From assembly GCA_945643635.1 (NCBI GenBank), contig CALZFC010000001.1:7442501-7506500 (forward strand): DNA of 64,000 nucleotides. Reading direction: 5' to 3'. Below the pieces are notes generated by a model, which searched no databases, was not told where the DNA came from, and was given only the letters and a program-made list of their open reading frames with translations. Source of the DNA: Allodiplogaster sudhausi. Lineage: Eukaryota; Nematoda; Chromadorea; Rhabditida; Diplogasteridae. Below are positions 256-40,795 of the stretch, one piece after another. The translations under genes and the position numbers were made by a program. Position 1 is the stretch's first letter. The number at the start of each line of letters is the position of its first letter.

Positions 256-536
256 TGCTGATGACGAATGGACCACCATGTCTAAAAACTGTAAAGAAAA
301 ATCCCGTAATAAGATTAATGGGACGAAACGGGTATAAGTGTAATTGAAACAGGTTCTCATCTGATGAGTCCCGCCTGTTAGTTTGTTAGCACTACAATCA
401 GTTACTATGTTGATGGTTGGAACAGCAAATAGCTACATGCTGTTGAGTGAACCATCAAGTCTAAAAACTGTGCTGATCATTGGACCACCAAGTCTAAAAA
501 CTGTGTTGATGATTGTACCACCAAGTCTAAAAACTG
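256..536 (+). repeat. 33-bp tandem repeat upstream of the Helitron
   Basis: The core AAGTCTAAAAACTG recurs at 457, 490 and 523, an exact 33-bp period. A fourth related copy is at 271-292, with ATG replacing AAG. The copies also share a preceding ACCACC or ACCATC. The first ribozyme-like module (301-379) lies between the outlying copy and the main cluster. No gene is evident in 1-945: the short open frames there have no recognisable motif. Confidence 0.8.
301..379 (+). ncRNA. Hammerhead-like ribozyme module, loop-loop arrangement (left copy)
   Basis: All conserved hammerhead core bases are present but in a non-standard strand order. Hairpin 1: helix III ATCCCG (301-306) with CGGG-T-AT (329-335). 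Its loop holds U307-A308 (cleavage-site UH), helix I strand ATAAGA (309-314), a TTAAT linker, helix II strand GGGAC (320-324) and GAAA (325-328). Hairpin 2: AACAGG (348-353) with CCTGTT (374-379). Its loop holds helix I strand TCTCAT (355-360), CTGATGA (361-367) and helix II strand GTCCC (368-372). Helix II is perfect; helix I has one A-C mismatch. Predicted cleavage would follow A308. Activity is inferred, not shown. Confidence 0.55.
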
Positions 537-898
537 ACAGAATTATTGCTATTATCTCTCAGTGTATTTGTAACACATTTTGCGATTCTATCGTTTTATA
601 TCGTTATGCATTTTCGAGGCGCGTTTACTTTTGTAAATACGCATGCATGATTCGAATCATATTACATTCGTGCAATGGCACTTTGAAAGTCTCTCGGAGA
701 TTGCTTTTAATTTGCATATTACTTTAAAACATTCCTCTGAGAACGGTTAAAGTGCCATTCCGTACAAGAAGAATATGTGAAATGCTTCGAATTGTGTATG
801 CGTATTTGATCGCATATTTTGATTGAATAATTCGCGGCGCATTTGAAATGCATAGCGGAGAACAGAACATTTGGTTAATCAACTCCTTTTTGCAGGAG

Positions 899-945
899 GT
901 AAGCTGATCGATCTGGTTGAGTGGCCTAAGTGACTTCTGTTCCAG
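899..945 (+). promoter_or_regulatory. Possible 47-nt leader intron or trans-splice acceptor of the Helitron ORF
   Basis: The ATG at 946 directly follows a polypyrimidine-CAG acceptor (CTTCTGTTCCAG). A GAG|GTAAGC donor lies 47 nt upstream at 899, the same size as the short 48-nt intron in the 15.8-kb gene. Either a short 5' exon is cis-spliced here, or the acceptor receives a spliced leader. This supports use of the first ATG rather than the later in-frame ATG that begins MPTVEVSRDV. Confidence 0.45.
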
Positions 946-3900
946 ATGGTCTTTCGTGTGACGCGAAACGGCGACAGGGTCGACCTGCGGCCCGGCCGCC
1001 GTCAACACTACGCAGGTGGCAATGACCCAGTGATTGAGGGGGCACCATCACTGGGAGAGCCGTTCTTCTGCCCCCACACACGCACGGTTGTCACTGAGAC
1101 AGCGGGACTTCCGTGTTTTCAACCTTTCCACTGCTGTCTCAACCCGGAGCTCTTATGCCCGGTCATGCCCACGGTAGAAGTATCCCGTGATGTCAATATT
1201 GATTCTGTGGTTGAAGTATCCCACAACAAGCAATGCAATGAGATGGAAACGAAGTTTCTCCAGTTGAAAGAATCTGCTCTCAAGTATGTTGCCCTCAGAG
1301 GAGGTGGAAATGGCGAAGCGGGCTATATCCCCTTCGAACCAGAAAATGAATACGATGACATTCCGTCAAACGACCGACTGCTTTTGGAAACAGTTGATGA
1401 CTACATACGCCGTATGGCGGAGACATATACTTTTGATGACACAGTGTTCGGACTAACTGGATTCTATGGAATCTTTGGACAGCGAGGAGCTGCTGATCTT
1501 TTTACAAGTGGCAAGTTCCAATTCGAATACTTAAGTGAAGACATGGCCTTTGTTGCCTTGAATGATTCCCTCAGAAGGACAGCCAAAAGGATACTTCTAC
1601 CTGTTTACCAGGATGAACATTATTGGTTTGCAGAGTATCATAAGGACAGCAACAGTGTTACGATTGCTGATTCAATTTACAACGTGTACAACGTTGTCTG
1701 TTTTCCTGGAAGCATTATGCAAATTACACTCCATATGCTTATAAAGCACGTGTTTCCAGGCACTCCTATGCCCACTTTCAAGTGGGAATCAGTTGCACAG
1801 CAAGAGGACGGTACCAACTGTGGTGTTTTCATGTCCAGATTTTATGAATGTGCCATGAAAGGCATAGATAAAGAGAGACACCACTTTGATTGGAAGTCCT
1901 ACAGACTTGTTATGCTGAATAGGCTGACTAAAGCCTCAAATCAAGAGTCCACTTCTGCGGCAAAGGTTGTTGCAAAGCCAACACAAGCTCAAAGTGAGGA
2001 ATGGACTCAAGTGAAGCCCAGAAGAAGCCAGAGATCGAGAAATGAAGGCTTTAAAAAGCCTCGCACTCCGCCTTGGCGGAAAGATTCTTGGAAAGGTAAA
2101 GGGATCAAGCCAGATGTTGTTCCCGAAATTGAGATAAGCAGACCATACAATGTGCTTGAAGAGGTAAATCTTGACGATGACGTCTTCGCAGATGTGGAGG
2201 CACCATTCTGTGAGGTTCAAGATCCTCAACGAAGATTGATGCAGCGCACAGTACAGAGCGCTTTCGAGAATATTGTCGATTTGTATGGCAATGGAAAGAC
2301 TATTCTTTTGAACGTCTCTGCATCCGAATCTCTGAGGCATGCTGATGCCAATCACAAGTATAACGCAAAGACTGTGCGATCATTCATTCACAAGTATTCA
2401 GCTGAGAAATGCAAAGTAATGGAGAGAATGCTGCTCCCATTGGTTGATGATAAGAGGAACGGACATTTGCTCTCTGCACTATTTGAAAAGAGTAGTAACA
2501 CTCTTACGATATATGATTCCCTTTGGAGTTCAGCAAAGACATATGAGTGGATTCGAACATCAGTTCGGAGACTAATTGCTCACGTTATGAAGATTAAGAA
2601 TGATATTACCGTAAAGACGGCCACCTGTACAGAACAGAAACGTGAAGTTGACTCTGGTGTTCACGCAATCCGATTTGCCATGAACGCTTGCAGTAATGGC
2701 AAGGACATAGAAGATGACTTTGATGCATCTGAATTCCGGAAGGAAATCTCTGAATTGGTTATGCATCATGAAAGGTTCAAAACCAATTTTACGAAGCATA
2801 ATGAGATTGTTAAAAACAGTCAATCTGTCAAAGCAAAAACTCCACAAGCGAATAATATTGTGTCAGCTGAGCAAATATCATTTGATGTTGAAAAGATCAA
2901 GTCGCAGTTGAATGCGAAATTGAAAGCACCAGATGTTGAAGTTGTGGAAGCATGCATTCTAAGAATTGCTCAAGATCAGCCCGCAAGAAAGGCAGTAGTT
3001 TGTAAGTACTCTCTATTGAAGGGTAACACAAATGTGTCTATTGACAATGCTTTAATGAAATCCTATGAAGGAGAGATAAATGAATGTCAGCTTGCTCAAT
3101 TAGTAATAGTTGATGATAATCGCAAGAAGCATTTCTTCTACTCTGACTTCTCTTGGAGCACTGGAATTATGAGAATTTGTGACTCAGATAAACATGTATC
3201 TCTTGATGCATACACTGACGTTATAGATAACGTACGAAAGTTTGTTTCCAGAATAAAAGCGACGAGTTCATTCGAGTGTATTCTGGAAGATTGCAAACAG
3301 CAAAGCAAGGGTGCGAAGCAATGCTCGTGGTTTTTCGCATGCAAATATGCAGAGTGCGCTCTGAACAGACTCTTATTTTCAATTGACGGCTTTAGCTGGG
3401 TGTTGTACAAGCAAACCTTGTTGTCATTGTTCGTACATAAAGACGAACGCAAACTGAAAGCATCTGATACAAGATCTAACCTCCGAAAATCGCTTGAAAA
3501 CTCAAGCAATATCTCTCCAGGATGCGCTCACAATGAATCAGATTTGAATGTTCGCATAACTAGAAGTAGAAGCAGAAGCTCAAATTCTGACAATGATTCG
3601 AATTTGTTTCGAACTCCAATCAAGCATCAAGTGCCCAGCGCGCGCCAAACTTCTCTGACAAAGAGAGGAAATCAGACACCTAAGCGTAAAAGTGATGTCA
3701 CTGACACCTCCATTTCTTTAAAGAAAAACAGAAGGGAAGTCATTACTGAGAGCCCGTCTGTTTTGTTATCTCAAATGAATGATTTGCATTTATTGCAAAG
3801 CCCATTGATTCATACTTCCGGGAGGAAACGGAAAGCTGAGAAGGATGTAGCTCCATCACCATCAACCATTTTATCTGGGATGAGTGAGATGAACGTTAGC

Positions 3901-6900
3901 ACTCCAAAGCGAGTTTCTACGAGACAGCCGAAAAAACTGTTTGTGCCCTATCAAGCTGAATTTCCCACTGGTACTTCCGATGTTCCAATCGCAAAGATGT
4001 CATACGACAGTTTAAAGAAGCTGAACGGCAACCAGTGGTTGAATGATGAAGTTGTGCTCTGTGCTATACAAGCAGTTTGCTACGGCAAGAAGGTTTTCCT
4101 GATTGATCCGGTTCAGTATGAAAGATACTGTACAAATCCAAACAGCATGCAAAAGTTGAGAACAAATAACTTCAGCAATTATGACATGATTCTGTTTCCA
4201 TTGGTCAATGATAACCACTTTATGCTAAGTGTCATAAACATGTCGTCGCCACGCTTTGCCATGGTTTACGACTCGCTGAATAAACTTGACCGGAACGAAT
4301 TATACAGAGTTCAAAAGTGTATTCATCACTTAATCGGACTTCAAGTAATGGCCGCCCCGCCAGGTGATGATCAGATCACTTTACAAAGTGATGGTTGTAA
4401 TTGTGGTCCAATTACAATTTTCCACGCTCTGCAAATTGTTAATGATCGGCCGACAGTTGTGCCGAATTTTGATGCTGCTTCATTCAGAAAGCAGTTGAAG
4501 CACTATTTGCAGACATGCAAGTTGATTAAGATAATTGGAGCAATCGAAGATAATGTTACTCCTCATTCCACTCCTATATCTCGAAGATCGAGCTCGCGTT
4601 CATCTATTGGCTCCATAACATCAATAAGAAGTGTGGCATCGTCCACGATGTCAGTTCGCTCAAATGAAAGCGACTATTCAAATGAGTCACTTGAAATGCT
4701 CAAAAAGTTTGGCTGGACACATCAGCCTCGAAGAAGTAAACCATGTGAGATCTCAGTATCAGCAATATCACTATATGCTGCTTATGCTGGAAGACATTTT
4801 GATAGCTCTATTATTGAAGCAATGTTAAAAGTCCTGGTTGCAGAGTCAAAGCAAAGCATTTTTGTGTATTCGCATTCCGTTCTTATGGATTGCATTACAA
4901 GGAGCACAGTTCCTGACAACATATCTAAAATGAAGCAGAACATTATATTCGTTCCATTGAAGGATCAAAACGAATGGATCCTTGGAGTGATAGAGACAAA
5001 GCCTAACATTACAATTCGACTCTATGACAAAGAGCGAAGAGATACCGTCATGGCAAAACTATCTAAATTTGTTGAGATAACATTTGGCAAGCCAGTAGCA
5101 ATGGACAAGAAGAGGTCCAATCAAGTATGCAAGTACTCTACTCCAGAAGAGTCTGCTCCTGCTCTATTCTTTAATGCCGAACAGTACTTGTGCGAATTGA
5201 CAAAGCAGAGAAAGAAGAGATTTGACGAGTTTCAATCTTCAGTATGCCTTGAAATCATCGTCAAGATGTTGATTGAATCAAAGATGGTCAGAATATATGC
5301 CCAAAGTGATACTGCGGCCAAGGAAGTTGTGCAAATAATACCATTCAAGTGTGCGGACTTGACGGATAGCGATATTTCTCTGCCATCAGAAGAAAACTAT
5401 CAATTGAGTGATGTAATTATCAATAAATTTGCGATCGCTCTCAATTCAAATAAACGATATGTTGTTCTACCACTTGACGCTTATGAAAGCGATGGAAGAC
5501 TTCAAGATGTTAACATCGGTACAAAACAAGGCATATTGATGCCTATAAAGAAAAATGCAAGCGAATATGCACTGGTGGTCATAAAGAATCAGAAAGCATA
5601 TGTCTATGATCCGTACATTGCAGCTGTAGAAAGTGAATTTTCTGAGAAAATTAAAAAAGTAGCAGCGTACTACAATCGGAACAGAGCCAGTTGCGGACTG
5701 AAAAGAAAGTATCCGGACATTAAAAGTCCGTCATCTACTGGAATTTACATTTGTGCATTAATGCATGCATTGTCAGTTGACAACAAGGACATACCTGACA
5801 CTATTCAGCCCAAGACTGTGAAGAGAATAATTTGTCGAGTCCTAGGATTATGTGACAATATATCTGTCACGCAAAATATAACAGATACGGCAGTTGATGA
5901 TTCTGTCCCAGATGATGAGTGCGCAATTCTGACAACCCCACAATCGGGTACGAGGGAATATAAAACAAAGCATATGCAAAAAACTCGAAAGGGTCAACAA
6001 TATATCCTGTATGCCCAGATTGATTATAGTCGTTTACCAGACACATTTATGCTTCCGCCACAGACCAAATGTGTGCACTGCCAAGCATGGCGATGGCCCG
6101 GAGAAACAGACTCCATTTGCTGCAAAGGCGGCCAGGTCAAGATCCAAGATGACTTTCCACTATTCGTGGACATTGAAGAAATTAGAAAAATTAAAGAGTA
6201 CATCCTTTCACCAGCTGGAAAAGCTACCTACGACACTGTGAGAATGATAAATTCTCCCCTATCATTTGTGTGCACCATTATGAATACGAAAAAGAAATCA
6301 GAATTTCCCAAAGGAGGTCCAGTGCCCCTGGTCGTTAACGGGAAAATAGAGGCAACAATTGTGAGCCCTCAAGATAGCACCTCGAAGTCGAATCCTTCGT
6401 TTACTTCACTTATCCTTTGCAAAGATTCTGCTCGCGCAGAAAAGGCTTGTGCCGACTTTATGAAGAAGTACAATGTAAAGTACAATCTTGATATTTTCAT
6501 GCGAGTTCGAAATGTGATACAGGAACACAATCATCTCGCGAAATGTTATATGCGCCTGGAAGAAGTTATCCAGGAAGAGAAAAAGAAAGCTGAGGCTCGA
6601 AATAGACAGCCTAATCAAGTCATGTTGAACATTCTCGATAGAGAGGAGGCTGTGAAACAGTTCTCTCCGAATACACGCGCTGGTGGACAACTGATTCATG
6701 TGAATCCTCCGGTCCATCCAGGGCGATTGAATGCGCCACAAGGAGACAAGTTTATGTCAGCCATATACGTCTACCCAGATGGGCAGTGTCCGAGCCACGA
6801 AGATTTGAATCGTGGAGTAAGAATTTTCCAGAAGTCCTCTTGGACAAATAAGAAGCTTGTGCACTTTAGCCAGCTGTGGGATGCCATGAGTTATACACTT

Positions 6901-9900
6901 TTGTTGCCACGTGGAAACCGTACTTATAAGACTGGAATGCCAAAGTTTACAACAATGAGTAAGAGAAATCCCCTTCCTGGGGTAAAGCCACGCGAGTTCC
7001 TCTCGCGATCTGAATATTACAATTTCACGTTCGCAGATAAAGGTGATACACCTGAAGAAAGGCGAATGCATTGGTGCAGATACTGGGGTATGCTTACCCA
7101 GCAATTCCAACTAGACGTTTATTTGCGAATTCAAGCAGACCGACTGGCTGCAATAAAGAGAGAACGTGAGGAACAAGTCAATAAGATGGCCAAAGTGTCA
7201 GCAAATGCAAAATATGTTCAGATGAAGCTTGAAGAAAAGGGATACGCACTTGGCAACTATGTCACACTCCCTGAAAGCTTTTATGGAGGTCCGAAATACT
7301 TCCGAAGACTGTACTACCAATGTGTAGCACTTTCAAAGAGATATGGCAAACCATCTCGCTTCATAACATTTACTGGAAATCCAGAATGGCCTGAGATTAC
7401 GGAGATCCTGAAACTCATCTCGCCTAATATGACATGGCATGACATTGCCGATGATGTTTGCCGAATCTTTTGGCTCAAGGCAAAAGAATTTTTGAAAGAC
7501 GTCACTGAACGTGGTGTACTTGGAGAAGTGGTTGCCAACGTCTGGAACGTTGAATATCAACAGAGAGGAATGCCTCATATTCACCTGTTGATCTGGTTTA
7601 AGAAAGGCCATGTTGACACTCCAGAGATCATTGATCAGACAATCTGTGCTGAGATTCCACCTGAACCGGCTCAGGATGACCCTTATTATGAGGAGAAAAT
7701 GAGACATCGTGAACTCATTCACAAGTGTATGATTCATGGTCCCTGCGAAGGTAAACTTGATATGACGTGCCGTAAGAGGCGACCCAATGCATTCTTATGC
7801 GCGAAAAGTTACCCTAAAGGCTATCGGGATGAAACAGAGATGATTGAAAACGATTATCCGCTGTATAGACGAAGAGATAACGGAGCAAACATTGTCTACT
7901 CAAAAGGAAAGAATGCACGAGTTGCAACGAATCGACATGTTGTTCCGCACAATCCATATCTCCTGATGAAGTATGGCTGTCACATTAATGTAGAGGCCTC
8001 TACGAGTATCTCTACATTCAAGTACATTTTCAAGTACATTTTCAAGGGCGTTGATCTCCTTGCTTTGGAAATTGATGATATGGAAGAAGATGAGATGAAT
8101 GCCAAAGGCATCGTACTCAGAAATGAATACGAGAAAAAAAATGGAAAAGTCAGGCAATTGGTTGACCTTGACGAAACAAAGACTTTCCAGAATGCGAGAA
8201 GCATATCCTCAATTGAGGCTTCATTCTGCAGACTTGGCCTGCCACGGCATGGTATATCTCATTGCGTTACAGCATTGTACATTCATCTGGAAGGTGAGCA
8301 ACATATGGTTGTCAAAGCTGATGATACTGCTGCCCAGAGACAACAAAGAGCTGAGAGAGCCACCTCCAGATTCATGGCTTTCATGGAGCTAAACATACGT
8401 GACGAAGATGCAAGAAAACGGACTTATCTTGAAGTTGAAGAAAGATACAGATGGGATCAGAATGCAAAGATGTACAAGCCATATGTGCGTACTGGCCAGA
8501 TTGAACGTAACATTGCGTATCTATCTCCCATCAGCCCCCGAAACAGGGAACTGTACGGACTGCACTGTCTGGTCAGAAGCCTTACAGGCTACACTTGCTT
8601 TGCTGATTTGCTTAAATCAGAAGATGGAAGCACCACATATGCAACCTTTGATGAGTCTGCTCGGGCAAGAGGCCTTTTGAGAGATGACAAGGAGTGGGAC
8701 GCATGTCTTAACCTTGCAAGCGAGTCTATACCGAATCCTAGAGCATTCCTCAGACTCTTCTGTGTCATTCTGATGAATTGTCAGCCACCCAGTCCGGCAG
8801 AACTCTTTGAAAAGTACAAGGCAGACATGTTTGACCGCGATAAGCAACATAAATACTCTGAAGAAGAGAAAGTGCAGAGAGTCCTCAGGCACATTCAGTC
8901 GATCATAAGACACTCTAACATGACGCTCAAGCAGTTTGGATTACCTGAGCTTAAAAGGAATGAAGCTCTTGAGCGAAAGTTCATGTCTGAAGACAAGAGA
9001 GAGGCTCAGAAGAGAGCAGATGAAATGCAACCAATGCTAAATGAAGGCCAGAAGGCGATTTCAGAGCAAATTATTGCTGCCATCTCTGACACAAGTGCCG
9101 AAAAGCGTTGCTTCTTTGTGACTGGAAGTGGAGGTTGTGGAAAGACATTCCTCTACGAGTACTTAATCAATTGGTGCATTGCACACGACAAGGTTGTTTT
9201 ACCTGTTGCCTCAACCGGCATTGCAGCAACTCTATTGAAGAATGGTACGACCGCTCACAGTGGTTTTGGAATTCCGCTCGAATATGATGAGCTGGACAAG
9301 ACAAACCTTGACATCACCTCGGACAAGGGTCAGTTCTTGAGACAAGTTGAAGTCATCATTTGGGATGAGGCCCCAATGCAGTCGAATGCAATCTTGAGTT
9401 TTGTTGACAGAACAATGAGGGTCGCTGCGCCCAGAGACCAGAAAGATAAGCCATTTGGTGGACGTGTCGTTCTCCTCGGTGGAGACTGGAAGCAAATTTT
9501 GCCCGTTATACCAAGTGCTCGAGATAAGCAGATCTTGAATTACACACTGAACAATGCACCTGTTTACGACAAGTTTGAGCAGTGCAAACTGACTGTTAAC
9601 ATGAGGGTCGACAAGGACCAACAAGTATTTCTGAAATATCAGACTGAAGTTGGAGAAGGAACTGCAAACTTTGACGGATTGCACATTCGTGTACCTGAAA
9701 GAATGCTATGCGCCGATGAGGACGCACTAATAGACTCCGTGTATCCGGAGGAAGTCCGATGCAACGGTGAAGAGATGAGCAAAAGAGCAATTCTCGCAGT
9801 TCGTAATGATGCAGTACTCAAACTAAATGAGAAGATTATGAACTTGCTACCTGGCGAAGCAGAAGAGTTTATGGGAATCACTGAGATTCCTGAAGAAGCA

Positions 9901-10863
9901 GAGCATATGGGCATGCCCGTAGATTTGATCTCAACCTTGGAGGCGTTGACGCCCAATGGAATGCCTGCTCATAAGTTGGTTTTGAAACCCCAAACACCCG
10001 TCATGCTTCTGCGGAACATTGACATTGAGAACAAGTTGTGCAATGGCACTAAACTTGTGTTCTTGAACGCAGTGAAAGTAAACTCAGCGGACAGAAATGT
10101 CATACTACTAAGATGCAGAAATGTGACTGTTAATCCACCAGAAGATGTATTTCTTCCCAGAATCGTTCTGAATTATCTCGATCGTAACAGTGGCGTACAG
10201 TTCACACGAAGACAGTTCCCGATAAGGGCGTGCTTTGCTTGCACGATTAACAAGAGTCAAGGCCAGACGCTGGCAAGAGTCGGACTCGATCTGAGAACTC
10301 CGACATTTTCCCACGGGCACTTCTATGTGGCCATCTCGAGAGTTAAGAATGAGGCACATCTCAAACTTTTGATACCAAAAGAATTTGTCATAGAAGACAA
10401 ATTGAACGGAAAGCATGCCATTGTCAGAAATATTGTTTTCCGAGAACTGTACCCGATGGTAAATTATGAGATCACAAACAGTCCTCCTGCACTGGCTGAC
10501 GAACCAGATGTTGACCCGTTTGAGGGCTTAAATCTTGATGACGATGAAGGGGCAGAGAATTATCCCGAACAGCATGAAGAAGACATTGAACATGGTCAGG
10601 AGATTGATCAAGAACAGCTCGAAAAAGAGCTTGATGACTTTACTTATCAGTTGCAGCAAGAGATTGCCGCAAAGCAGAATGGCGAAGTAGCCGAGAACAA
10701 GACAACGGATGAGAATGCCGTTGATAACAATGATATCATACAGGCAATGCATGAAATCGATGAAGATATTCACTTCTTTAGTGATGACGAAGAAGGCGAC
10801 CTTCAGTACGTCGTATCTTCCGATGAGGAGGAGAATCCCCAAGATGAGGAAGAAAAGAACTGA
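946..10863 (+). CDS. Helitron replication initiator-helicase with multiple Ulp1-like protease domains
   Basis: This 3305-residue intronless protein should nick, unwind and transfer its own DNA by rolling-circle transposition in the nucleus. The N-terminal half carries about six Ulp1/C48-type SUMO-protease-like folds. The first (H225, D242, Q286, C292) and fourth (W1031, H1091, D1109, Q1147, C1153) keep the whole catalytic set. Others are decayed, for example DSGV where the Cys should be near residue 600. A Cys cluster follows (C1709, C1712, C1725, C1726). The Helitron-like N region spans about 2010-2230. The HUH motif is H2211-I-H2213, and the Rep tyrosines are Y2360 and Y2364 (YIFKY). The helicase has Walker A GSGGCGKT (2727-2734), Walker B WDEA (2806-2809) and motif VI FYVAISR (3126-3132). 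The tail is very acidic. No frameshift or stop is seen, so the copy may be functional. Ulp1 fusions are known in some Helitrons; six in tandem seems unusual. Confidence 0.93.
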   Translation: MVFRVTRNGDRVDLRPGRRQHYAGGNDPVIEGAPSLGEPFFCPHTRTVVTETAGLPCFQPFHCCLNPELLCPVMPTVEVSRDVNIDSVVEVSHNKQCNEMETKFLQLKESALKYVALRGGGNGEAGYIPFEPENEYDDIPSNDRLLLETVDDYIRRMAETYTFDDTVFGLTGFYGIFGQRGAADLFTSGKFQFEYLSEDMAFVALNDSLRRTAKRILLPVYQDEHYWFAEYHKDSNSVTIADSIYNVYNVVCFPGSIMQITLHMLIKHVFPGTPMPTFKWESVAQQEDGTNCGVFMSRFYECAMKGIDKERHHFDWKSYRLVMLNRLTKASNQESTSAAKVVAKPTQAQSEEWTQVKPRRSQRSRNEGFKKPRTPPWRKDSWKGKGIKPDVVPEIEISRPYNVLEEVNLDDDVFADVEAPFCEVQDPQRRLMQRTVQSAFENIVDLYGNGKTILLNVSASESLRHADANHKYNAKTVRSFIHKYSAEKCKVMERMLLPLVDDKRNGHLLSALFEKSSNTLTIYDSLWSSAKTYEWIRTSVRRLIAHVMKIKNDITVKTATCTEQKREVDSGVHAIRFAMNACSNGKDIEDDFDASEFRKEISELVMHHERFKTNFTKHNEIVKNSQSVKAKTPQANNIVSAEQISFDVEKIKSQLNAKLKAPDVEVVEACILRIAQDQPARKAVVCKYSLLKGNTNVSIDNALMKSYEGEINECQLAQLVIVDDNRKKHFFYSDFSWSTGIMRICDSDKHVSLDAYTDVIDNVRKFVSRIKATSSFECILEDCKQQSKGAKQCSWFFACKYAECALNRLLFSIDGFSWVLYKQTLLSLFVHKDERKLKASDTRSNLRKSLENSSNISPGCAHNESDLNVRITRSRSRSSNSDNDSNLFRTPIKHQVPSARQTSLTKRGNQTPKRKSDVTDTSISLKKNRREVITESPSVLLSQMNDLHLLQSPLIHTSGRKRKAEKDVAPSPSTILSGMSEMNVSTPKRVSTRQPKKLFVPYQAEFPTGTSDVPIAKMSYDSLKKLNGNQWLNDEVVLCAIQAVCYGKKVFLIDPVQYERYCTNPNSMQKLRTNNFSNYDMILFPLVNDNHFMLSVINMSSPRFAMVYDSLNKLDRNELYRVQKCIHHLIGLQVMAAPPGDDQITLQSDGCNCGPITIFHALQIVNDRPTVVPNFDAASFRKQLKHYLQTCKLIKIIGAIEDNVTPHSTPISRRSSSRSSIGSITSIRSVASSTMSVRSNESDYSNESLEMLKKFGWTHQPRRSKPCEISVSAISLYAAYAGRHFDSSIIEAMLKVLVAESKQSIFVYSHSVLMDCITRSTVPDNISKMKQNIIFVPLKDQNEWILGVIETKPNITIRLYDKERRDTVMAKLSKFVEITFGKPVAMDKKRSNQVCKYSTPEESAPALFFNAEQYLCELTKQRKKRFDEFQSSVCLEIIVKMLIESKMVRIYAQSDTAAKEVVQIIPFKCADLTDSDISLPSEENYQLSDVIINKFAIALNSNKRYVVLPLDAYESDGRLQDVNIGTKQGILMPIKKNASEYALVVIKNQKAYVYDPYIAAVESEFSEKIKKVAAYYNRNRASCGLKRKYPDIKSPSSTGIYICALMHALSVDNKDIPDTIQPKTVKRIICRVLGLCDNISVTQNITDTAVDDSVPDDECAILTTPQSGTREYKTKHMQKTRKGQQYILYAQIDYSRLPDTFMLPPQTKCVHCQAWRWPGETDSICCKGGQVKIQDDFPLFVDIEEIRKIKEYILSPAGKATYDTVRMINSPLSFVCTIMNTKKKSEFPKGGPVPLVVNGKIEATIVSPQDSTSKSNPSFTSLILCKDSARAEKACADFMKKYNVKYNLDIFMRVRNVIQEHNHLAKCYMRLEEVIQEEKKKAEARNRQPNQVMLNILDREEAVKQFSPNTRAGGQLIHVNPPVHPGRLNAPQGDKFMSAIYVYPDGQCPSHEDLNRGVRIFQKSSWTNKKLVHFSQLWDAMSYTLLLPRGNRTYKTGMPKFTTMSKRNPLPGVKPREFLSRSEYYNFTFADKGDTPEERRMHWCRYWGMLTQQFQLDVYLRIQADRLAAIKREREEQVNKMAKVSANAKYVQMKLEEKGYALGNYVTLPESFYGGPKYFRRLYYQCVALSKRYGKPSRFITFTGNPEWPEITEILKLISPNMTWHDIADDVCRIFWLKAKEFLKDVTERGVLGEVVANVWNVEYQQRGMPHIHLLIWFKKGHVDTPEIIDQTICAEIPPEPAQDDPYYEEKMRHRELIHKCMIHGPCEGKLDMTCRKRRPNAFLCAKSYPKGYRDETEMIENDYPLYRRRDNGANIVYSKGKNARVATNRHVVPHNPYLLMKYGCHINVEASTSISTFKYIFKYIFKGVDLLALEIDDMEEDEMNAKGIVLRNEYEKKNGKVRQLVDLDETKTFQNARSISSIEASFCRLGLPRHGISHCVTALYIHLEGEQHMVVKADDTAAQRQQRAERATSRFMAFMELNIRDEDARKRTYLEVEERYRWDQNAKMYKPYVRTGQIERNIAYLSPISPRNRELYGLHCLVRSLTGYTCFADLLKSEDGSTTYATFDESARARGLLRDDKEWDACLNLASESIPNPRAFLRLFCVILMNCQPPSPAELFEKYKADMFDRDKQHKYSEEEKVQRVLRHIQSIIRHSNMTLKQFGLPELKRNEALERKFMSEDKREAQKRADEMQPMLNEGQKAISEQIIAAISDTSAEKRCFFVTGSGGCGKTFLYEYLINWCIAHDKVVLPVASTGIAATLLKNGTTAHSGFGIPLEYDELDKTNLDITSDKGQFLRQVEVIIWDEAPMQSNAILSFVDRTMRVAAPRDQKDKPFGGRVVLLGGDWKQILPVIPSARDKQILNYTLNNAPVYDKFEQCKLTVNMRVDKDQQVFLKYQTEVGEGTANFDGLHIRVPERMLCADEDALIDSVYPEEVRCNGEEMSKRAILAVRNDAVLKLNEKIMNLLPGEAEEFMGITEIPEEAEHMGMPVDLISTLEALTPNGMPAHKLVLKPQTPVMLLRNIDIENKLCNGTKLVFLNAVKVNSADRNVILLRCRNVTVNPPEDVFLPRIVLNYLDRNSGVQFTRRQFPIRACFACTINKSQGQTLARVGLDLRTPTFSHGHFYVAISRVKNEAHLKLLIPKEFVIEDKLNGKHAIVRNIVFRELYPMVNYEITNSPPALADEPDVDPFEGLNLDDDEGAENYPEQHEEDIEHGQEIDQEQLEKELDDFTYQLQQEIAAKQNGEVAENKTTDENAVDNNDIIQAMHEIDEDIHFFSDDEEGDLQYVVSSDEEENPQDEEEKN

Positions 10864-10868
10864 ATAAA
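10863..10868 (+). terminator. Poly(A) signal AATAAA overlapping the Helitron stop codon
   Basis: TGA at 10861-10863 shares its A with AATAAA. A second AATAAA-like string lies at about 10938-10947. Proximity to the stop implies a very short 3' UTR if used, which would end the mRNA before the right ribozyme-like module at 11089. Confidence 0.5.
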
Positions 10869-11088
10869 GACGAGAGTCTAATTGCTCAGTGAGCAAGCAT
10901 TTGTAAATATCTTGAAAGATGCAAATCTTGCAAGAAGCAAATAAATAACAAGATTGCGCAAAGTTAACGCTTTGTTTCAATATGAAATCTTACTGCTTAA
11001 TTAGCAAGAAGTTGTGAAATAATTAGAAGAAGCAAATGGCGGGTAACTGCATTGTTTGAATGAGAAGTTACATACTCTCACCAAAAAC

Positions 11089-11172
11089 ATCCCGTCGCGA
11101 GATTAATGGGGCGAAACGGGTATACATGTACGAATATTGCCAGGTTCTCGCCTGATGAGTTCTCCGCCTGGT
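11089..11172 (+). ncRNA. Hammerhead-like ribozyme module, loop-loop arrangement (right copy)
   Basis: This has the same architecture as the copy at 301. Helix III is ATCCCG (11089-11094) with CGGG-T-AT (11117-11123). Then come UH = U11095 C11096, helix I strand GCGAGA (11097-11102), a TTAAT linker, helix II strand GGGGC (11108-11112) and GAAA (11113-11116). The second hairpin is GCCAGG (11139-11144) with CCTGGT (11167-11172). It encloses TCTCGC (11146-11151), CTGATGA (11152-11158) and GTTCT (11159-11163). Helix I is perfect here and helix II pairs through G-C and G-U. Relative to the left copy, two helix I pairs and one outer-hairpin pair changed on both strands. Predicted cleavage would follow C11096. 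The hairpin may also be the Helitron 3' hairpin. Confidence 0.55.
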
Positions 11173-11185
11173 TTAAGCTGTCTAA

Positions 11186-12180
11186 CACAATATATCTCAA
11201 CTTATAACAGCGCTTAATTTTTATAATTTATATAAAATTCATGTTGTTGAACAAAATAAAAATCTAATTCATATATACACTCTAAATTATTGTTGTCATT
11301 TATATTTATTACATTCTCGACATTTCCAATTATTACCTGTTATCGTTCAATCAATTATTTGCGTTTTCTTAGTTTATTCTATGGATTATTTTAAATAATC
11401 CATAATAACCTAATTTTGTGAAACAATGGAAAGTACAATATTATCTTGAAGTTATGGAAAAAATATGCAAAATATGTTTTTCTTTGGAATATTACATTCA
11501 ACACTAACTATCCTTCATTCCTGCCCGTTACCTCATTAGCATTGCCACGTGTTAATGTTCATTCCAGCTTTGTTCGCATTGCGTTAGCAGTTAGTTTCCT
11601 CTCGCTCGCTCTTCGTGAGCGGTTGATTTCTGTTCTGTTGGCCTATGCGTGCGCGTTCGTTTTGCTGAGATAAACGGTGAGCTCCACGAATTTTCTTGTT
11701 CCAGCCATTTATATTGCTTCTATTATATCTGTTGACTATTCACAGATCATTTATTTATTTCGCAGTCTAATTTGGGTTTTACAATTAGCTTTCACATTTT
11801 ATGTCATTCTACTATTCATGCACCCCTAGCGAAAAACTGTACATATTTTATTTTCTCCTTTTTCTTCTCTCCCTTCCTTAGTCTTTCTATTCCCTAACTC
11901 TATGTTTCTCTGTATTCGGCAAGAGGTTTTATAGTGGAATAAACTTTAACAAAGTATGTTTAATTTGAATGTTTAGTATATAGACTTGGTAGGTTCGCCT
12001 TCTACATTCGTGTTTTTTTATCGCCTGATATAATATTTTATTAGGGAATTTAGAAAGACACTGGTGGACGAAGAGATTCGTGTTCACAACCAACATCACT
12101 ATGACCAATCTCTAACAACTGATTGTGCTTTGGTGAGGTTGCCACCCTGTTATCGTGGTTTCAGAATTATAGAGAGAAAG
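11186..12180. other. AT-rich intergenic stretch
   Basis: I see no gene, RNA or repeat here. The open frame at 11446-11673 has no motif or splice context supporting it. Confidence 0.6.
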
Positions 12181-12256: not shown

Positions 12257-12581
12257 AAGAGACCTGTCGAGCAGTTGTTCACAGAGCTACTCTTAATCCT
12301 CACACCTAATTAGTCCTTTTCCTTCTTTCGTATCACTCTCCACAACTTTGGAGCATCGTTTGTTTTGCCCTTTATTTAATTTATTCTAAGCTTAATTATG
12401 TGATTAAAAATATTCCTACTTCTTATGCTTTCTTATTTCGTTTAATTTTCATGTTATAATCTGAAGGTTTATGTTTTCTATCTTGAAAAAATTAAATTAT
12501 TACGAATTTACTATGAGAAAAGCGACAGTAGCAGAATGATAGAAATGGGAGTGTAAGAGATGTAGAAAGGGAGAGAGAAAC

Positions 12582-12623
<42 letters not shown>

Positions 12624-12692
12624 AACAATCTCTTTATTGAACTCTATGATTTTAATATTTCGCATATTTATTCGCTCTCACACTTCTCTCTG

Positions 12693-12723
<31 letters not shown>

Positions 12724-13404
12724 GCCTCTCTCTCTCTCTTTCGCCATCTCTCTCTCTCTATCTCTCTCTCTCTATTTCTCTCTCTCTCTCTATCTCGTGC
12801 TCTTTATCATTGATTGGTTATCAAACCCATCTCACCTGTTGCCTTGCACCTAAGAATTGCGTTTGCCAGGCAAATCTATCACAGAGATTCTTTAAAGACA
12901 TAATCACAAATTTTCTCCTTACGGCATAAATTTTGGACACAAGTCGCCAAATTTATTTTAATAAAGCTCCCGCCATCTTGAATTTAAACCGGGCGCGTTG
13001 CGGATGCGCGTCTGCGGCCTCGCTCCTAGCCGGCGTCCTGATATTTTTTTTTCAAACTGCCTGGAATTCCGCGCGGCTCGAAATTTTATGTTATGATGGT
13101 ATGTTGTTAATATCTCTTTGTTTCTTAAACACTCTTTGTTCTGCTTAAAAATAGGTGAAGTAAGAAATAGAGAGAAAGCGATCGGATGGGATCACAATTA
13201 GAAAGAGAGAAAGAGAGAATGAATACTAATTTAATAATATCGATAATTTATTTATGTTTTGAACGAGGTTTGGCTGTTTTGTGCTATTGAATAAGGAATA
13301 GCATTGAAAATGTATTAAAACAAAACAATTGGCTACTTTTATTCTCGGAAATAAAAATAAATAATAATGGCCAAAGAGAATAAGTTTTGTCTGGTGCATA
13401 CTTA

Positions 13405-23331: not shown

Positions 23332-25257
23332 CTAGCATTTGGTATGATAATCAATGATAAAGCAGGGTAGGCAAATGTTCCTGCTGCAGTATGCGCATAG
23401 CACGAAGCACGGACGGTTGCAGGCAGGCATTTGGCAAGGACCCGCAACGTCAGCCCCAAAGCAGAATTCGTTTGGTGTTACGAACGGTGGCGTGCGGGTA
23501 GAGATGTAGCCTGGTTTGTGCCAGGAAAATTGCAGGAAACTCTGGAATCGTGGGTGGCAGAACTGGTAGTAGACGACGGAGAGCGTTTTCAGGATGTTGT
23601 CTCGCGCAGAAACGTTGATATCCGGGTAGAGCACCAAGCAGTGCGAGTGAATATGGCGGATGTAGCCCTTCATCATGCGGAAGAAAAATACATCTAACGG
23701 CTGGATAAGCGAGGTAGCACCAGCGGGGATATTGTGGATTGTCAGCTTTGATCCCTGTGGTGCAACAGCTTGCATTGCGCCGTGGTCACGGAACGATGAC
23801 CACATGTCGACACAGAGATGAAGGTCAGAAGGTATTCCTGGTATGTACACGCAAGTCTCGAGCCAGTCGATCATTAGATTTTTGGTCATTATATGACTCT
23901 TTGCCGCGCGTACAACTAGGTTGAAGCACTGAAAAAGAGATAGACACGAATAGAAAGAAAAAGAGAAAGAAAGACATATGTATGGAGATAGTCTAGAAAG
24001 ACAAACTTGAATCGGAGGCTTATTCGGCGGAAACACTCCTTTCGGCTCTGCCAGAACCACATAAAGCTTTGGCCCCAGAGTTCCATTTGCAAAATGCAGC
24101 GGCATAACTGTGTATGAGTGAGTTAGGGCGGTTGAGCTCTGCGCGACGACTTCCACTTTCTTGGATCCCTTTTCAGCGAGAGTCCTAGATTAGCAAGAAT
24201 TAGCTATCCCAAAAACGAGAGAGAGAGAGAGAGAGAGACTAGCCGATGACTGTGCAATTCTTTCACTACTCCGCTTTGGTCAGCATTCGCGACACGTGCA
24301 GGAGTACATGCAGAAATTACATCTGCAATCTTCTTCACATATTCTTCGGCTTCTTTTGATATTTCGTCTCTTCTCTGCATGGACTTCCGTGTCACAAATG
24401 CCGTAACTCGACGAGAGCAGATATTATTCGCTTTCTACAATTGCAATACATAACCAATATTTTACTGTAAATGAATTCGAAACGCGCCTTGAAGCGAGAA
24501 ATCCATGAATCGCTTGCCAGGAAGTCTTTTATCTGGGTGTGTTCTCGATTTAATGAGTGCGCAATTCGCCGAAGATCTTCATCATGAATCTCAACCCCTA
24601 CAGAAAATATGAAAGAAGGAGAGAAAGAAAGAGAGAACACAAAAGGAATGATATAACGAAACACGAAAACCACACCTTCCGCAATTTTCTCCTTCACAAC
24701 ATCTCGCAACTTTATGGCCAGTTGTTGAAATCGATCCCGAATAGACGCTTTGATTTCGCCTTCCTCGATAAATTTTTTCTCCAATTCACGCAGCTTGTCC
24801 ATGCAATTCGCATTTGAAATGAATCTATAGTGGTGTGACATAGTGGACAAGGCCCTTGTTCCTTTTGACGGGCTCCGGTAGAACTCTATCGCGCTGACAA
24901 TCTGCGAGGGAGGCGGGCATTCAAATTATTAATTTTCTAGAAAAGTGACTTTTGCGCATCACAAACCTGCATCTTCTTTACATTCTTTCCCAGGAAAGAC
25001 ACCTCTTCTTCTTCGGGGGGAACGAGCGGTTCGTTGTTAACGTCATTTTCGGGATCCCAGTCGCTGTCGTCTTCATCTTCATGTTGCAGAGGCGTCTCGT
25101 ACTCGTCGACGAATAGGGCATCAAGATGGGCTTCGTTCAGAATTTTGACGAAGGAGTGGGCGACTTTTAATTCTTCACGAGAGGGAACAGCGGTGCTATC
25201 AGCCAAACCAAACTGTTCGGAGAGCAACCGGACGACCACTCGCGGGTTAAACGACAT
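23332..25257 (-). CDS. Tc5-like transposase (DDE, DD37D)
   Basis: The protein catalyses cut-and-paste transposition. Exons on the minus strand: 25257-24967, 24901-24676, 24597-24466, 24430-24244, 24184-24007 and 23928-23332 (TAG), about 536 residues. An acidic N-terminus is followed by a Tc5/CENP-B-type helix-turn-helix (IKDFLASDSWISRFKARF). The catalytic core has D in NADQSGV, D in CVDMWSS and D in LIQPLDV, with 37 residues between the last two. The end is Cys-rich (CQMPAC, CFVLCAYC, CLPC), like the Tc5 C-terminal domain. All junctions are in phase. Intron 4 needs a GC donor at 24243. The start codon lies within the inverted repeat. No disabling change is seen. Confidence 0.9.
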
Positions 25258-26257: not shown

Positions 26258-26320
26258 AACCTATGCTAGGACATAGCGAACGCTCCAAGGGAGATAATGG
26301 GTAAAGATACTGAAACCAGG

Positions 26321-26439
26321 TCCCCCCATAGCTCCGCTAGTTAGAGAATCTACTTAGCATTGCTTGTCCAATATTTACCGGGTTTGCGCGGAGCGGCGTA
26401 GCGGGCGGTGGGAGTGAGATTTTCGAGTGGGGTTTTTTT
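26321..26439 (+). promoter_or_regulatory. tRNA(Ala)-like pol III unit in satellite, first of about 26
   Basis: TAGCTCCGCTAGTTAGAG (26328-26345) resembles a tRNA A box/D arm. CTTAGCAT (26353-26360) matches the anticodon loop of tRNA-Ala(AGC). A weak T-arm/B-box analogue GGGTTTGCGC follows at 26380. A T7 run at 26433-26439 would end a pol III transcript of roughly 110-120 nt. The arrangement is kept in every full unit. Transcription is inferred. Confidence 0.5.
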
Positions 26440-29400
26440 AGGATGGAAAATGAATATTGGGGCTACGATATGGTATGGGTTTGGGATTTTTGGGTTTTGG
26501 TTTTGTAGTCGGCGCCGGCGGCCAAAGTTGCAACTTTTCGGCGTGCGCTTGCGCTGGGTTGGCGAGTTTGAGCGTTTCTATCTTTTGTTTCGGAGAAGAT
26601 GGGAAGCTGGAAAAAATAGAGATTGATAGGAAATGTCTTCAAGATTAATAGGACACAAATTGGGCGAATTCCGCCCGAGGGTCTTTCCTGTGGGCGTGGC
26701 CAAAGTTTTAGCCCGTTTTTTGGCCCTTTTTTGCTCTGTATTTGCTCACTTTCTCAAAATCTGTACCCGCGATTTTCTTTGTTTCGACATATATCATGTA
26801 GTTTTGGACGGCGCATCGACTGATCTATAGCTGATCTACTGAAAGTACCTAGATCGATAGATACGAGGCAAAAACAGGCGGACCCATTTTGTTAGGAGCG
26901 AACCTTTGAAAAATCAATACTCGGAGATTTGAGAATGGAGCGGGATGGGACATCCAGAATATTGTTTAGTTTTTGGAGAGCTTTGAAATGAGCCTACTCT
27001 CGTTTGGCCGGGTTTCCGGGAAAGTACCCTGAGGTGGCCGTGAAATCTCAAAATTTTTGGACGCCATTTCCGCGGCTGTTTTTTCTCGGATGTTGGTGTT
27101 ATGACAAAGTGTTATATATCATTCTGTAGCTTTTGCGAAGGTGAACAAATGTCTCATACAAACGTTTTCCATACAACGACGTTTTTGATCTACTTTTGGT
27201 CCTAGAATGTTCAGGCCACTTTTTCGACCTTACCTATCACTGGAACTTTTTGGCGCATATTTTTATTCGAATAGAGCCTAAAATTAGCTATCGAATGATA
27301 GGTTGATCGTCTGTATTCGTTCAGGCGTATTCGAGATATGAATTATTTTGTTTGTTTTTGGTGCATTTTCGTCGCACGCAGATTTTCTTAACGACCCAGG
27401 TTCGGAGTCGCGCGCGGGCAAACCCTTTTGCGCGTTTTAATTCGACCCCCAATGCAAAGTTCTAAATGCTAGGACATAGCGCGCACTCCAAGGGAGATAA
27501 TGGGCAAAGATACTGAAACCAGGTCCCCCCATAGCTCCGCTAGTTAGAGAATCTACTTAGCATTGCTTGTTCAATATTTACCGGGTTTGCGCGGAGCAGC
27601 GTGGTGGGCGGTGGGAGTGAGATTTTTGGGTGGGGTTTTTTTAGGATGGTAAATGAATATTGCGGCTACGATATGGTTTGGGTTTGGGATTTTTAGGATT
27701 TGGTTTTGGGGTCGACGCCGGCGGTCAAAGTTGGAACTTTTGGCGAGTTTGAGCGTTTGCATCTTTTGTTTCGGAGAAGATGGGAAGCTGGAAAAAATAG
27801 TGATTGATAGGAAATGTCTTCAAGATTAATAGGACACAAATTGGGCGAATTCCGCCCGAGGGTCTTTCCTGTGGGCGTGGCCAAAATTTTACCCCGTTTT
27901 TTGGCCCTTTTTTGCTCTGTATTTGCTCACTATCTCAAAATCTGTACCTGCGCATTTCTTGCTTTCGATATATATCATGTAGTTTTTGACGGCGCATCGA
28001 CTGATCTATAGCTGATCTACTGAAAGTACCTAGATCGATAGATACGAGGCAAAAACAGGCGAACCCATTTTGTTAGGATCGAACCTTTGAAAAATTAGTA
28101 CTCGGAGATTTGGGACCGGAGCGGGATGGGACATTTAGAATATTGTACAGTTTTACGAGTGCTTTGAAGTGAGCCTACTCGCGTTTGGCTGGGATTCCGG
28201 AAAAGTACCCTGAGGGGGCCGTGAAATGTCGAATTTTTATGAGGCCTTTTCCGCGCCTGTTTTTTCTCGGGGATTGGCCTTATGGCAACACGTTATATAT
28301 GATTCTGTAGCTCTCGAGAAGACGAACAACTTTGTCATACAAAACGTTTTCATACAACGACGTTTTTGATCTACTTTTGGGGTCAGAATGTTTAGGGCAC
28401 TTTTTCGACCTTAGCTATCACTGACACTTTTTGGGGCATATTTTTGTTCGAATAGAGCATAAAATTAGCTATCGCATGGTAGTTGAACCTTTAGATTTGG
28501 TCCAGGCATATTCGAGAAATGAATTATTTTGTGGTTTTTTGGTTCATTTTCACCGCACGCAGATATTCTACCAACCCAGGTTCGGAGTCGCACGCGGGCA
28601 AACCCTTTTGCGCGCTTTTGTGTGAACCCTAATCAAACTAAACCTATGCTAGGACATAGCGGAGACTCCAAGGGAGATAATGGGCAAAGATACTGAAACC
28701 AGGTCCCCCCATAGCTCCGCTAGTTAGAGTGTATACTTAGCATTGCTTGTGGTTTATTGCCGGGGTTTGCGCGGAGCGGCGTGGTGGGCGGTAGAGTTGA
28801 GATTTTCGAGTGGGGTTTTTTTAGGATGGTAAATGAATATTGGAGCTACGATATGGTATTGGTTTGGGATTTTTGTGTTTTTGTTTTGGGGGTGGCGCCA
28901 GCGGCCAAAGTTGCAACTTTTTGGCGCGCGCTTGCGCTGGGTTGGCAACTTTGAGCGTTTGCATCTTTTGAATGGAGAGGAATTAGGTGAGGAAAAAAAT
29001 AGTGGCTGATAGGGAATGTCTTCAAGATTAATAGGACACAAATTGGGCGAATTCCGCCCGAGGGTCTTTCCTGTGGGCGTGGCCAAAATTTTACCCCGTT
29101 TTTTGGCCCTTTTTTGCTCTGTATTTGCTCACTATCTCAAAATCTGTACCTGCGCATTTCTTGCTTTCGATATATATCATGTAGTTTTTGACGGCGCATC
29201 GACTGATCTATAGCTGATCTACTGAAAGTACCTAGATCGATAGATACGAGGCAAAAACAGGCGAACCCATTTTGTTAGGATCGAACCTTTGAAAAATTAG
29301 TACTCGGAGATTTGGGACCGGAGCGGGATGGGACATTTAGAATATTGTACAGTTTTACGAGTGCTTTGAAGTGAGCCTACTCGCGTTTGGCTGGGATTCC

Positions 29401-29460
29401 GGAAAAGTACCCTGAGGGGGCCGTGAAATGTCGAATTTTTATGAGGCCTTTTCCGCGCCT

Positions 29461-40138: not shown

Positions 40139-40795
40139 GTTTTTTCTCGGGAATTGACCTTATGGCAACATGTTATACATGATTCTGTAGCTCTCGAGAA
40201 GACGAACAACTTTGTCATACAAAACGTTTTCATACAACGACGTTTTTGATCTACTTTTGGGGTCAGAAGGTTTAGGCCACTTTTTCGACCTTAGCTATCA
40301 CTGACACTTTTTGGGGCATATTTTTATTCGAATAGATCCTAAAATTAGCTATCGAATGATAGGTTGATCTTCTGTATTCGTTCAGGCATATTCGAGATAT
40401 GAATTATTCTGTGGCTTTTTGGTGCATTTTCATCTCACGCAGATTTTCTTAACGACCCAGGTTCGGAGTCGCGCGCGGGCAAACTCTTTTGCGCGCTTTT
40501 GTGTGACCCCCAATGCAAAGTTCTGAATGCTAGGACATAGCGGAGACTCCAAGGGAGATAATGGGCAAAGATACTGAAAGCAGGTCCCCCCATAGCTCCG
40601 CTAGTTAGAGAATGTACTTAGAAACGCTTGTCCATTATTGCCGGGGTTTGCGCGGAGCGGCGTGGTGGGCGGGGGAGTTGAGATTTTCGAGTGGGGTTTT
40701 TTTAGGATGGAAAATGAATATTGGGGCTACTTTTTGGTATTGGTTTGGTATTTTTGGGTTTTGGTTTTATGGTCGGCGCCGGCGGCCAAAGTTGC

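Follow-up and report, generated by a model that had tools for sequence, protein, structure and literature searches.

Candidate type-SGC hammerhead ribozymes on both sides of a Helitron gene in the nematode Allodiplogaster sudhausi

We analysed a 64,000-nucleotide (nt) stretch of the Allodiplogaster sudhausi genome, hereafter the window (contig CALZFC010000001.1, C1:7442501-7506500; the genome comprises 351.8 Mb in 382 contigs), and found that the Rep/helicase gene of a Helitron containing an Ulp1-like peptidase is flanked by two short modules in sense orientation. With a probability of about 0.85, both are hammerhead ribozymes of the non-circularly permuted type SGC, kept on either side of the gene. 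The gene and the modules, with their parts, are as follows.

946 to 10863, plus strand: single Helitron open reading frame (ORF) of 3305 amino acids, with Ulp1-like peptidase (C48), Helitron_like_N (Rep) and PIF1 helicase domains
303 to 378, plus strand: 5' type-SGC hammerhead module, from a letter-by-letter check and the descriptor; single in this element, arrayed in tandem in other lineages
303 to 314, plus strand: 5' module, block S (III5' CCCG 303-306, U307, A308, I5' ATAAGA 309-314)
Between A308 and A309, plus strand: 5' module, predicted cleavage, placed by analogy with hammerheads and with type SGC (passages of PMC10085705)
315 to 319, plus strand: 5' module, linker I5' to II3', TTAAT (letter-by-letter check)
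320 to 332, plus strand: 5' module, block G (II3' GGGAC 320-324, GAAA 325-328, III3' CGGG 329-332)
349 to 378, plus strand: 5' module, outer stem around block C (ACAGG 349-353 with CCTGT 374-378)
Within 349 to 378, plus strand: 5' module, block C (I3' TCTCAT 355-360, CTGATGA 361-367, II5' GTCCC 368-372)
11091 to 11171, plus strand: 3' type-SGC hammerhead module, beginning 227 nt past the stop codon
11091 to 11102, plus strand: 3' module, block S (III5' CCCG 11091-11094, U11095, C11096, I5' GCGAGA 11097-11102)
Between C11096 and G11097, plus strand: 3' module, predicted cleavage
11103 to 11107, plus strand: 3' module, linker I5' to II3', TTAAT
11108 to 11120, plus strand: 3' module, block G (II3' GGGGC 11108-11112, GAAA 11113-11116, III3' CGGG 11117-11120)
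11140 to 11171, plus strand: 3' module, outer stem around block C (CCAGG 11140-11144 with CCTGG 11167-11171)
Within 11140 to 11171, plus strand: 3' module, block C (I3' TCTCGC 11146-11151, CTGATGA 11152-11158, II5' GTTCTCC 11159-11165)

Both modules hold the full hammerhead core, and in both the strands follow the order III5'-UH-I5' (block S), II3'-GAAA-III3' (block G) and I3'-CUGANGA-II5' (block C), the last block being enclosed by a fourth, outer stem. A first-pass annotation of the window had proposed the two modules and their permuted S-G-C order; coordinates, parts and order were correct letter by letter. When both strands of the window were searched with an SGC descriptor made of the core and stems I to III (the outer stem being ignored), two matches were obtained, and these were the two modules, compared with 1 match in 73 Mb (one strand) of first-order Markov random sequence. 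A model, R1, scored the 5' module at 92.9 bits and the 3' module at 89.9 bits, values that are high by construction because both copies belong to the R1 alignment. In the 3' module, stem II depends on G-U pairing or on a bulge. Pairing between the 5' and the 3' module was disfavoured, stem I then being weaker (−3.8 as against −5.0 and −8.1 kcal/mol, with 4-5 pairs). The classical hammerhead types I, II and III were rejected for the modules on the strength of the S-G-C order and of the Rfam hammerhead families, which gave no match in the window at the gathering score or up to E 5, and none up to E 10 in three loci and in 11040-11220. The first-pass annotation had also called the topology new. 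This was mistaken, since the same order, linker and extra stem were published in 2023 as type SGC, the HRIMA-1 motif, with 583 sequences (Eckert, Friedrich, Weinberg & Weinberg 2023, NAR 51:2850; passages of PMC10085705). According to the same passages, type SGC came first from metatranscriptomes and also from metagenomes and RefSeq, was cleaved in vitro at the predicted site, and in one sequence mutations in all four stems were rescued.

The gene between the modules is that of a Helitron, with Helitron_like_N and PIF1 helicase matches in the window ORF at E-values of 1.2e-40 and 4.5e-53; no reverse-transcriptase family matched this ORF at E 0.01. Of its protein relatives, one from Ancylostoma duodenale has the best coverage (36% identity over 99% of the searched part) and one from the mayfly Ephemera danica the top score (32% over 82%). 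Both modules lie on the strand of the ORF.

Three DNA searches of the genome returned at least 63, at least 47 and at least 9 matches, similar modules being present outside the window too. The resulting comparison is drawn from this single genome, and the set of 95 copies, restricted to matches covering at least 85% of the query, counts some places twice (window/L001, window/L028 and overlapping loci). Two alignments were used. The first, A1, holds 55 distinct, unselected modules. The second, A3, holds 49 selected modules, namely 38 of the 55 and 11 rows from further loci; the 17 rows dropped comprise L026 and 16 array copies, some of them degenerate, and new copies identical to existing rows (L114, L116:163, L121, L122) also stayed outside. 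Five sub-lineages, A to E, were sorted by eye from array type and similarity and are listed further below. Seven additional lineage-E copies (L130-L136, of which L135 and L136 are damaged) were read and lie outside the counts.

The core is strongly conserved. In A1, with deviant cores included and the letter pattern composed after the alignment had been seen, CUGAUGA was found in 42 of 55 modules and CUGACGA, which differs at position 7 only, in 9, giving CUGA[U/C]GA in 51 of 55. The cleavage dinucleotide was UC in 50 and UA in 4 (UH in 54 of the 55), and GAAA was present in all 55 and was invariant in A3 as well, where the closing U-A pair was found in 49 of 49 modules. The core letters vary mostly at places where hammerheads tolerate it. 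In the third search, lineage E kept an intact core in 8 of 9 copies (one of the 8 without part of the outer stem), the ninth reading CUGGCGA. The spacer from stem III to the fourth stem measured 16-21 nt over the 55 modules.

The stems are likewise maintained. In A1, 96.9% of 1114 cells were paired, with 38 cells scored as gaps where MAFFT had split the innermost outer-stem pair; shuffled alignments gave 91.5% and the structure slid along the alignment 28-50%, and the covariation score was 0.201 compared with 0.109 in shuffles. In A3, pairing reached 98.3% of 1028 cells (25-53% when slid), and 8 pairs changed on both sides, a number attained by none of 500 shuffles (mean 3.4); further pair types numbered 16 as against 13.9 in shuffles, 27 of 500 reaching this value. 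Compensatory change in stem I, stem II and the outer stem, as reported by the first-pass annotation, is borne out by the alignments of further copies: both-side changes affect 5 of the 6 pairs of stem I and one pair each in stem II, stem III and the outer stem. Paired cells in A3 amounted to 99.7% for stem I, 98.0% for stem II, 98.4% for stem III and 97.1% for the outer stem, whose outer pair is C-G, A-U or U-A across copies (CCAGG/CCTGG and variants). Lineage E is the most telling for this test of structure, with GCG(U)GGU/ACCCGC as stem I and GAGAC/GUCUC as stem II.

A different structure could be the one conserved. Helitrons carry structured ends, and the outer stem together with a local palindrome could form a DNA or RNA hairpin read by the Helitron Rep, the hammerhead likeness being incidental. 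The palindrome, CTCAT-CTG-ATGAG in block C (window 356-368 and copies), competes with stem I, and block C of the 5' copies does fold as one long hairpin. This local hairpin pairs in 91.6% of the A1 cells, with one pair being A-U, G-C or G-U in all 55 modules, and in A3 two of its pairs changed on both sides, a number reached by 38 of 500 shuffles. In A3, however, its pairing drops to 86.9%, compared with 99.7% for stem I, and its inner pair is broken in 27 of 49 modules, so that stem I explains the data better and the local hairpin was rejected as the conserved element. It also leaves unaccounted for the conservation of blocks S and G, the GAAA, the UH site and core variation that falls mostly at position 7, and the CTAG end of the element with its own hairpin (see below) lies elsewhere than the modules. 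A Rep-read hairpin is thus quite improbable; the local hairpin may instead be an inactive, off state of the ribozyme.

The copies occupy two places, 5' modules upstream of a Helitron gene and 3' modules past its stop codon, and both placements were seen in at least one member of each of the five sub-lineages, with the intervening gene read in part.

Sub-lineage A: window, C33, C45 and a 99%-alike amplified family; modules on both sides, in one orientation, in window, C33 and C45
Sub-lineage B: 183-bp arrays; modules on both sides, in one orientation, at C1:7351805-7352617 with 7362848-7363078
Sub-lineage C: C43, C29, C57; modules on both sides, in one orientation, in C43 and C57
Sub-lineage D: C13, C9, C6, C1:7330916; modules on both sides, in one orientation, in C13
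Sub-lineage E: C140, C174 and others; modules on both sides, in one orientation, in C140 and C174

The direct orientation around the gene noticed at first in the window is thus found in other sub-lineages also. Compared with the window protein, that of lineage D showed 57% amino-acid identity (an aligned piece of 324 C-terminal columns) and that of lineage E 39% and 49% (two aligned pieces), while no match to the window protein was obtained with the C-terminal piece from lineage E; the splits are deep, though all lie inside one genome. Compared between lineages in 40-nt bins, the module was 85-92% identical and the adjoining bins 45-87%. An internally deleted element (L010, C1:7613500-7615700) has lost most of the gene but retains 5' array modules as well as two 3' modules separated by about 0.4 kb. 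In the amplified family of lineage A, copies of the 5' module that are 99% identical follow one another at ~32-kb intervals on contig C267 (18018, 50088, 82162), and the module is also present on other short contigs; this unit looks like a large, recently amplified tandem, and the family's 3' ribozyme, with the core UUGACGA, may be inactive.

The number of modules varies between lineages: 5' modules are single or arrayed, for example in 183- or 236-bp units, and 3' modules are single or paired ~145 bp apart. Units of 183, 236 and ~145 bp resemble the repeats of animal retrozymes (passages of PMC7229834), and the modules might descend from active SGC ribozymes of another replicon, such as a retrozyme-like circular RNA or a viroid-like agent, that was repeatedly inserted beside Helitrons and has no Helitron function now. 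Against this stands the constancy of their setting, at the same two places and in the same orientation. In seven of the eight loci examined, the distance from the stop codon to the 3' module is 80-229 nt (in the remaining one, L056, it is 804 nt, the longest frame there being short); the start region of the gene is present at 11 of the 13 5'-array loci L009-L021 (all except L010 and L018); and the missing partner modules of lineages D and E were present in 3 of 5 stretches fetched at the predicted places (L123, L125 and L126, the position of L125 having been chosen after L124 was read), while L124 landed inside the ORF and L127 held no module. We therefore hold descent from such a replicon to be very unlikely. 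Chance resemblance, which short motifs make conceivable (the window holds 7 occurrences of CTGATGA by itself, the number expected by chance), has next to no probability given the two descriptor matches in the window as against 1 in 73 Mb of random sequence and the compensatory changes in A3.

Several observations weigh against two ribozymes kept for the Helitron. Stem I of the window 5' module contains an A.C mismatch (A311 opposite C358) that the first-pass annotation does not mention; it is the sole stem-I mismatch in A3, and the duplex of this stem is worth −0.1 kcal/mol compared with −5.0 in near-identical sisters that pair fully (ATGAGA/TCTCAT). The nested minimum free energy folds of both window modules given by ViennaRNA, whose model leaves out pseudoknots, differ from the proposed fold. 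Some cores deviate: the amplified family has UUGACGA in its 3' module (13 loci), three damaged array copies have CUGAUGU, CUUAUGG and CUGAUAA, and L119 has CUGGUGA; among the lineage-E copies, the outer stem of L135 is incomplete and the core of L136 is CUGGCGA. In the unselected alignment A1, pairs changed on both sides numbered 5 for a shuffle mean of 3.7 (66 of 500 shuffles reached 5), and further pair types 13 for 13.3 (421 of 500). By our reading the independent covariation events are few, since most changes separate a few lineages; we count at least four (the first two pairs of stem I, its third pair in lineage D, the changes of lineage E in stems I and II, and the pair of the outer stem that occurs in three types). 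Some bins farther from the module, chiefly near the gene, are equally conserved (up to 90% or more). Finally, a cut 3' of the gene would strip the poly(A) tail from transcripts running through the module, and mature mRNA may never contain the 3' module, because possible poly(A) signals precede it in the window.

The first-pass annotation had placed the modules at both ends of the Helitron, which holds for the gene and fails for the DNA. The window and C43 copies are homologous from about 3.4 kb ahead of the 5' module onward, starting near C1:7439340, where no clear TC end was seen. Downstream, an exact 3' end ...CCCCCCATAGCTCCGCTAG, a tail ending in CTAG, was found in 8 of 30 fetched 3'-module loci, ~190 nt past the module in most, and in L030, L031, L033/L057, L047 and L051 the CTAG is followed by T and unrelated flanks. 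A hairpin followed by CTAG and T has the appearance of a Helitron 3' end and was seen in a number of lineage-A and lineage-B copies. The window copy has a different sequence at this place and no CTAG tail. Two copies of lineage E cease to resemble each other just past the module. Since copies share sequence beyond both cleavage sites, we rejected the ribozyme cuts as ends of the mobile DNA, and with the CTAG end lying elsewhere, the ribozymes flank the gene and do not define the DNA ends.

Some repeats adjoin these ends. Positions 1 to 258 of the window (plus strand), shortly before the 5' module, are the end of a ~270-bp tandem array with 7.6 copies in a 3.1-kb stretch (L099), nearly all upstream of the window. 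The same place is occupied in lineage E by a 78-bp tandem repeat (L123:1-1748, 22.5 copies, 96% matches) directly before the 5' module. The sequence ...CCCCCCATAGCTCCGCTAG also occurs in 16 copies at window 26300-44200 and 57656, mostly 1.18-1.21 kb apart, with two gaps of 1.74 kb and one of 13.5 kb; these 1.2-kb units are tandem non-autonomous Helitron-like units that share their 3' end with some Helitrons, and the descriptor found no SGC module in them.

Elsewhere in the window, a fragment of a Tc5-type DDE transposase lies on the minus strand at 23332-24156 (Transp_Tc5_C, E 1.1e-13), and 12548-12756 gave many sub-threshold matches to plant microRNA precursors on both strands, probably owing to a long palindrome or simple repeat. 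A neighbouring ORF had no homologue at E 0.001. Outside this genome, pattern scans of viral_contigs (3 and 8 stretches) and genome_contigs (37) gave an SGC descriptor match in none of the 48 fetched loci, and these pattern matches look like chance; four viral_contigs stretches matched a peptide pattern, none of them encoding a relative of the Rep region.

If both modules are type-SGC ribozymes, each would fold upon transcription of the element. Stem III and the outer stem would form two hairpins whose loops pair as stems I and II, rebuilding the hammerhead core, and the RNA would be cut after H17; by analogy, self-cleavage after A308 and C11096 is what the module RNAs most likely undergo. A transcript through both modules would be trimmed to a 10,788-nt RNA (309-11096) holding the whole gene. 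Hammerhead cleavage leaves a 5'-OH and a 2',3'-cyclic phosphate, and the trimmed RNA would carry these ends. The likeliest use we infer, at about even odds, is the trimming of element RNA out of read-through transcripts in the manner of R2 or of retrozymes. Circularisation or a part in transposition is speculation; a tRNA ligase could possibly close the RNA, as it does in vitro for animal retrozyme RNAs (passages of PMC7229834). That this rolling-circle DNA transposon has an RNA step, in which paired SGC ribozymes free a ~10.8-kb RNA and a host ligase makes of it a protein-coding RNA circle, seems to us unlikely; such a circle, if real, would link Helitron biology with that of retrozymes and viroid-like RNAs.

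The hammerheads known in mobile elements of eukaryotes belong to retroelements, whose RNA intermediates they make or trim. The prevailing view of Helitrons is that they move as DNA alone, and selection for two candidate self-cleaving ribozymes on both sides of a Helitron gene, persisting while the proteins diverged deeply, is therefore unexpected. An RNA-processing step in Helitron biology becomes directly testable, and the type-SGC permutation, first known from environmental sequences, gains a place in a genome, where many copies and natural covariation data are available. This Helitron setting looks new. Our literature search found apparently no paper linking hammerhead or other self-cleaving ribozymes with a Helitron, Helentron or DNA transposon, in agreement with the remark of the first-pass annotation that it knew of no hammerheads from Helitrons; subscription journals were thinly covered, so this is no proof of absence. 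A search on 'type-SGC' returned the 2023 paper only, the main text of which, as far as its available passages go, mentions no Helitron, transposon or nematode (PMC10085705), and passages of PMC6431247 and PMC4918198 hold no apparent link between Helitrons and hammerheads.

Among known systems, the element shares with other Helitrons a Rep-type N domain and a PIF1 helicase in one ORF, and a number of lineage-A and lineage-B copies have a Helitron-like 3' end of hairpin and CTAG followed by T; it differs from other Helitrons in the ribozymes around the gene, the Ulp1-like peptidase domain and a window copy without CTAG tail. Animal retrozymes (Cervera & de la Pena 2020; passages of PMC7229834) carry type I hammerheads, are non-autonomous and are attributed to retrotransposition, whereas here the topology is permuted and a protein gene lies between the modules. 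Penelope-like elements and Terminons also have hammerheads in the terminal repeats of a gene-bearing mobile element, but they are retroelements with minimal type I hammerheads (passages of PMC6431247 and PMC7229834), whereas the window ORF matches no reverse-transcriptase family at E 0.01 and the copies continue past the cleavage sites. The pseudoknot (PK) hammerhead (Zhan et al. 2024; passages of PMC11300833) likewise has a core held by a pseudoknot, which there replaces stem II in a whole that resembles pistol; in our modules the loops of two hairpins are connected through both stem I and stem II, and the blocks follow the SGC order. The closest counterpart is type SGC itself (passages of PMC10085705), with the same block order, core letters, stems I to III, short I5'-II3' linker (5 nt here, typically 3 there) and fourth stem linking the remaining strands of I and II, the spacer of 16-21 nt falling within the 0-44 nt given for that type; what sets the present modules apart is their setting, in pairs or arrays about the gene of a DNA transposon within a large eukaryotic genome.

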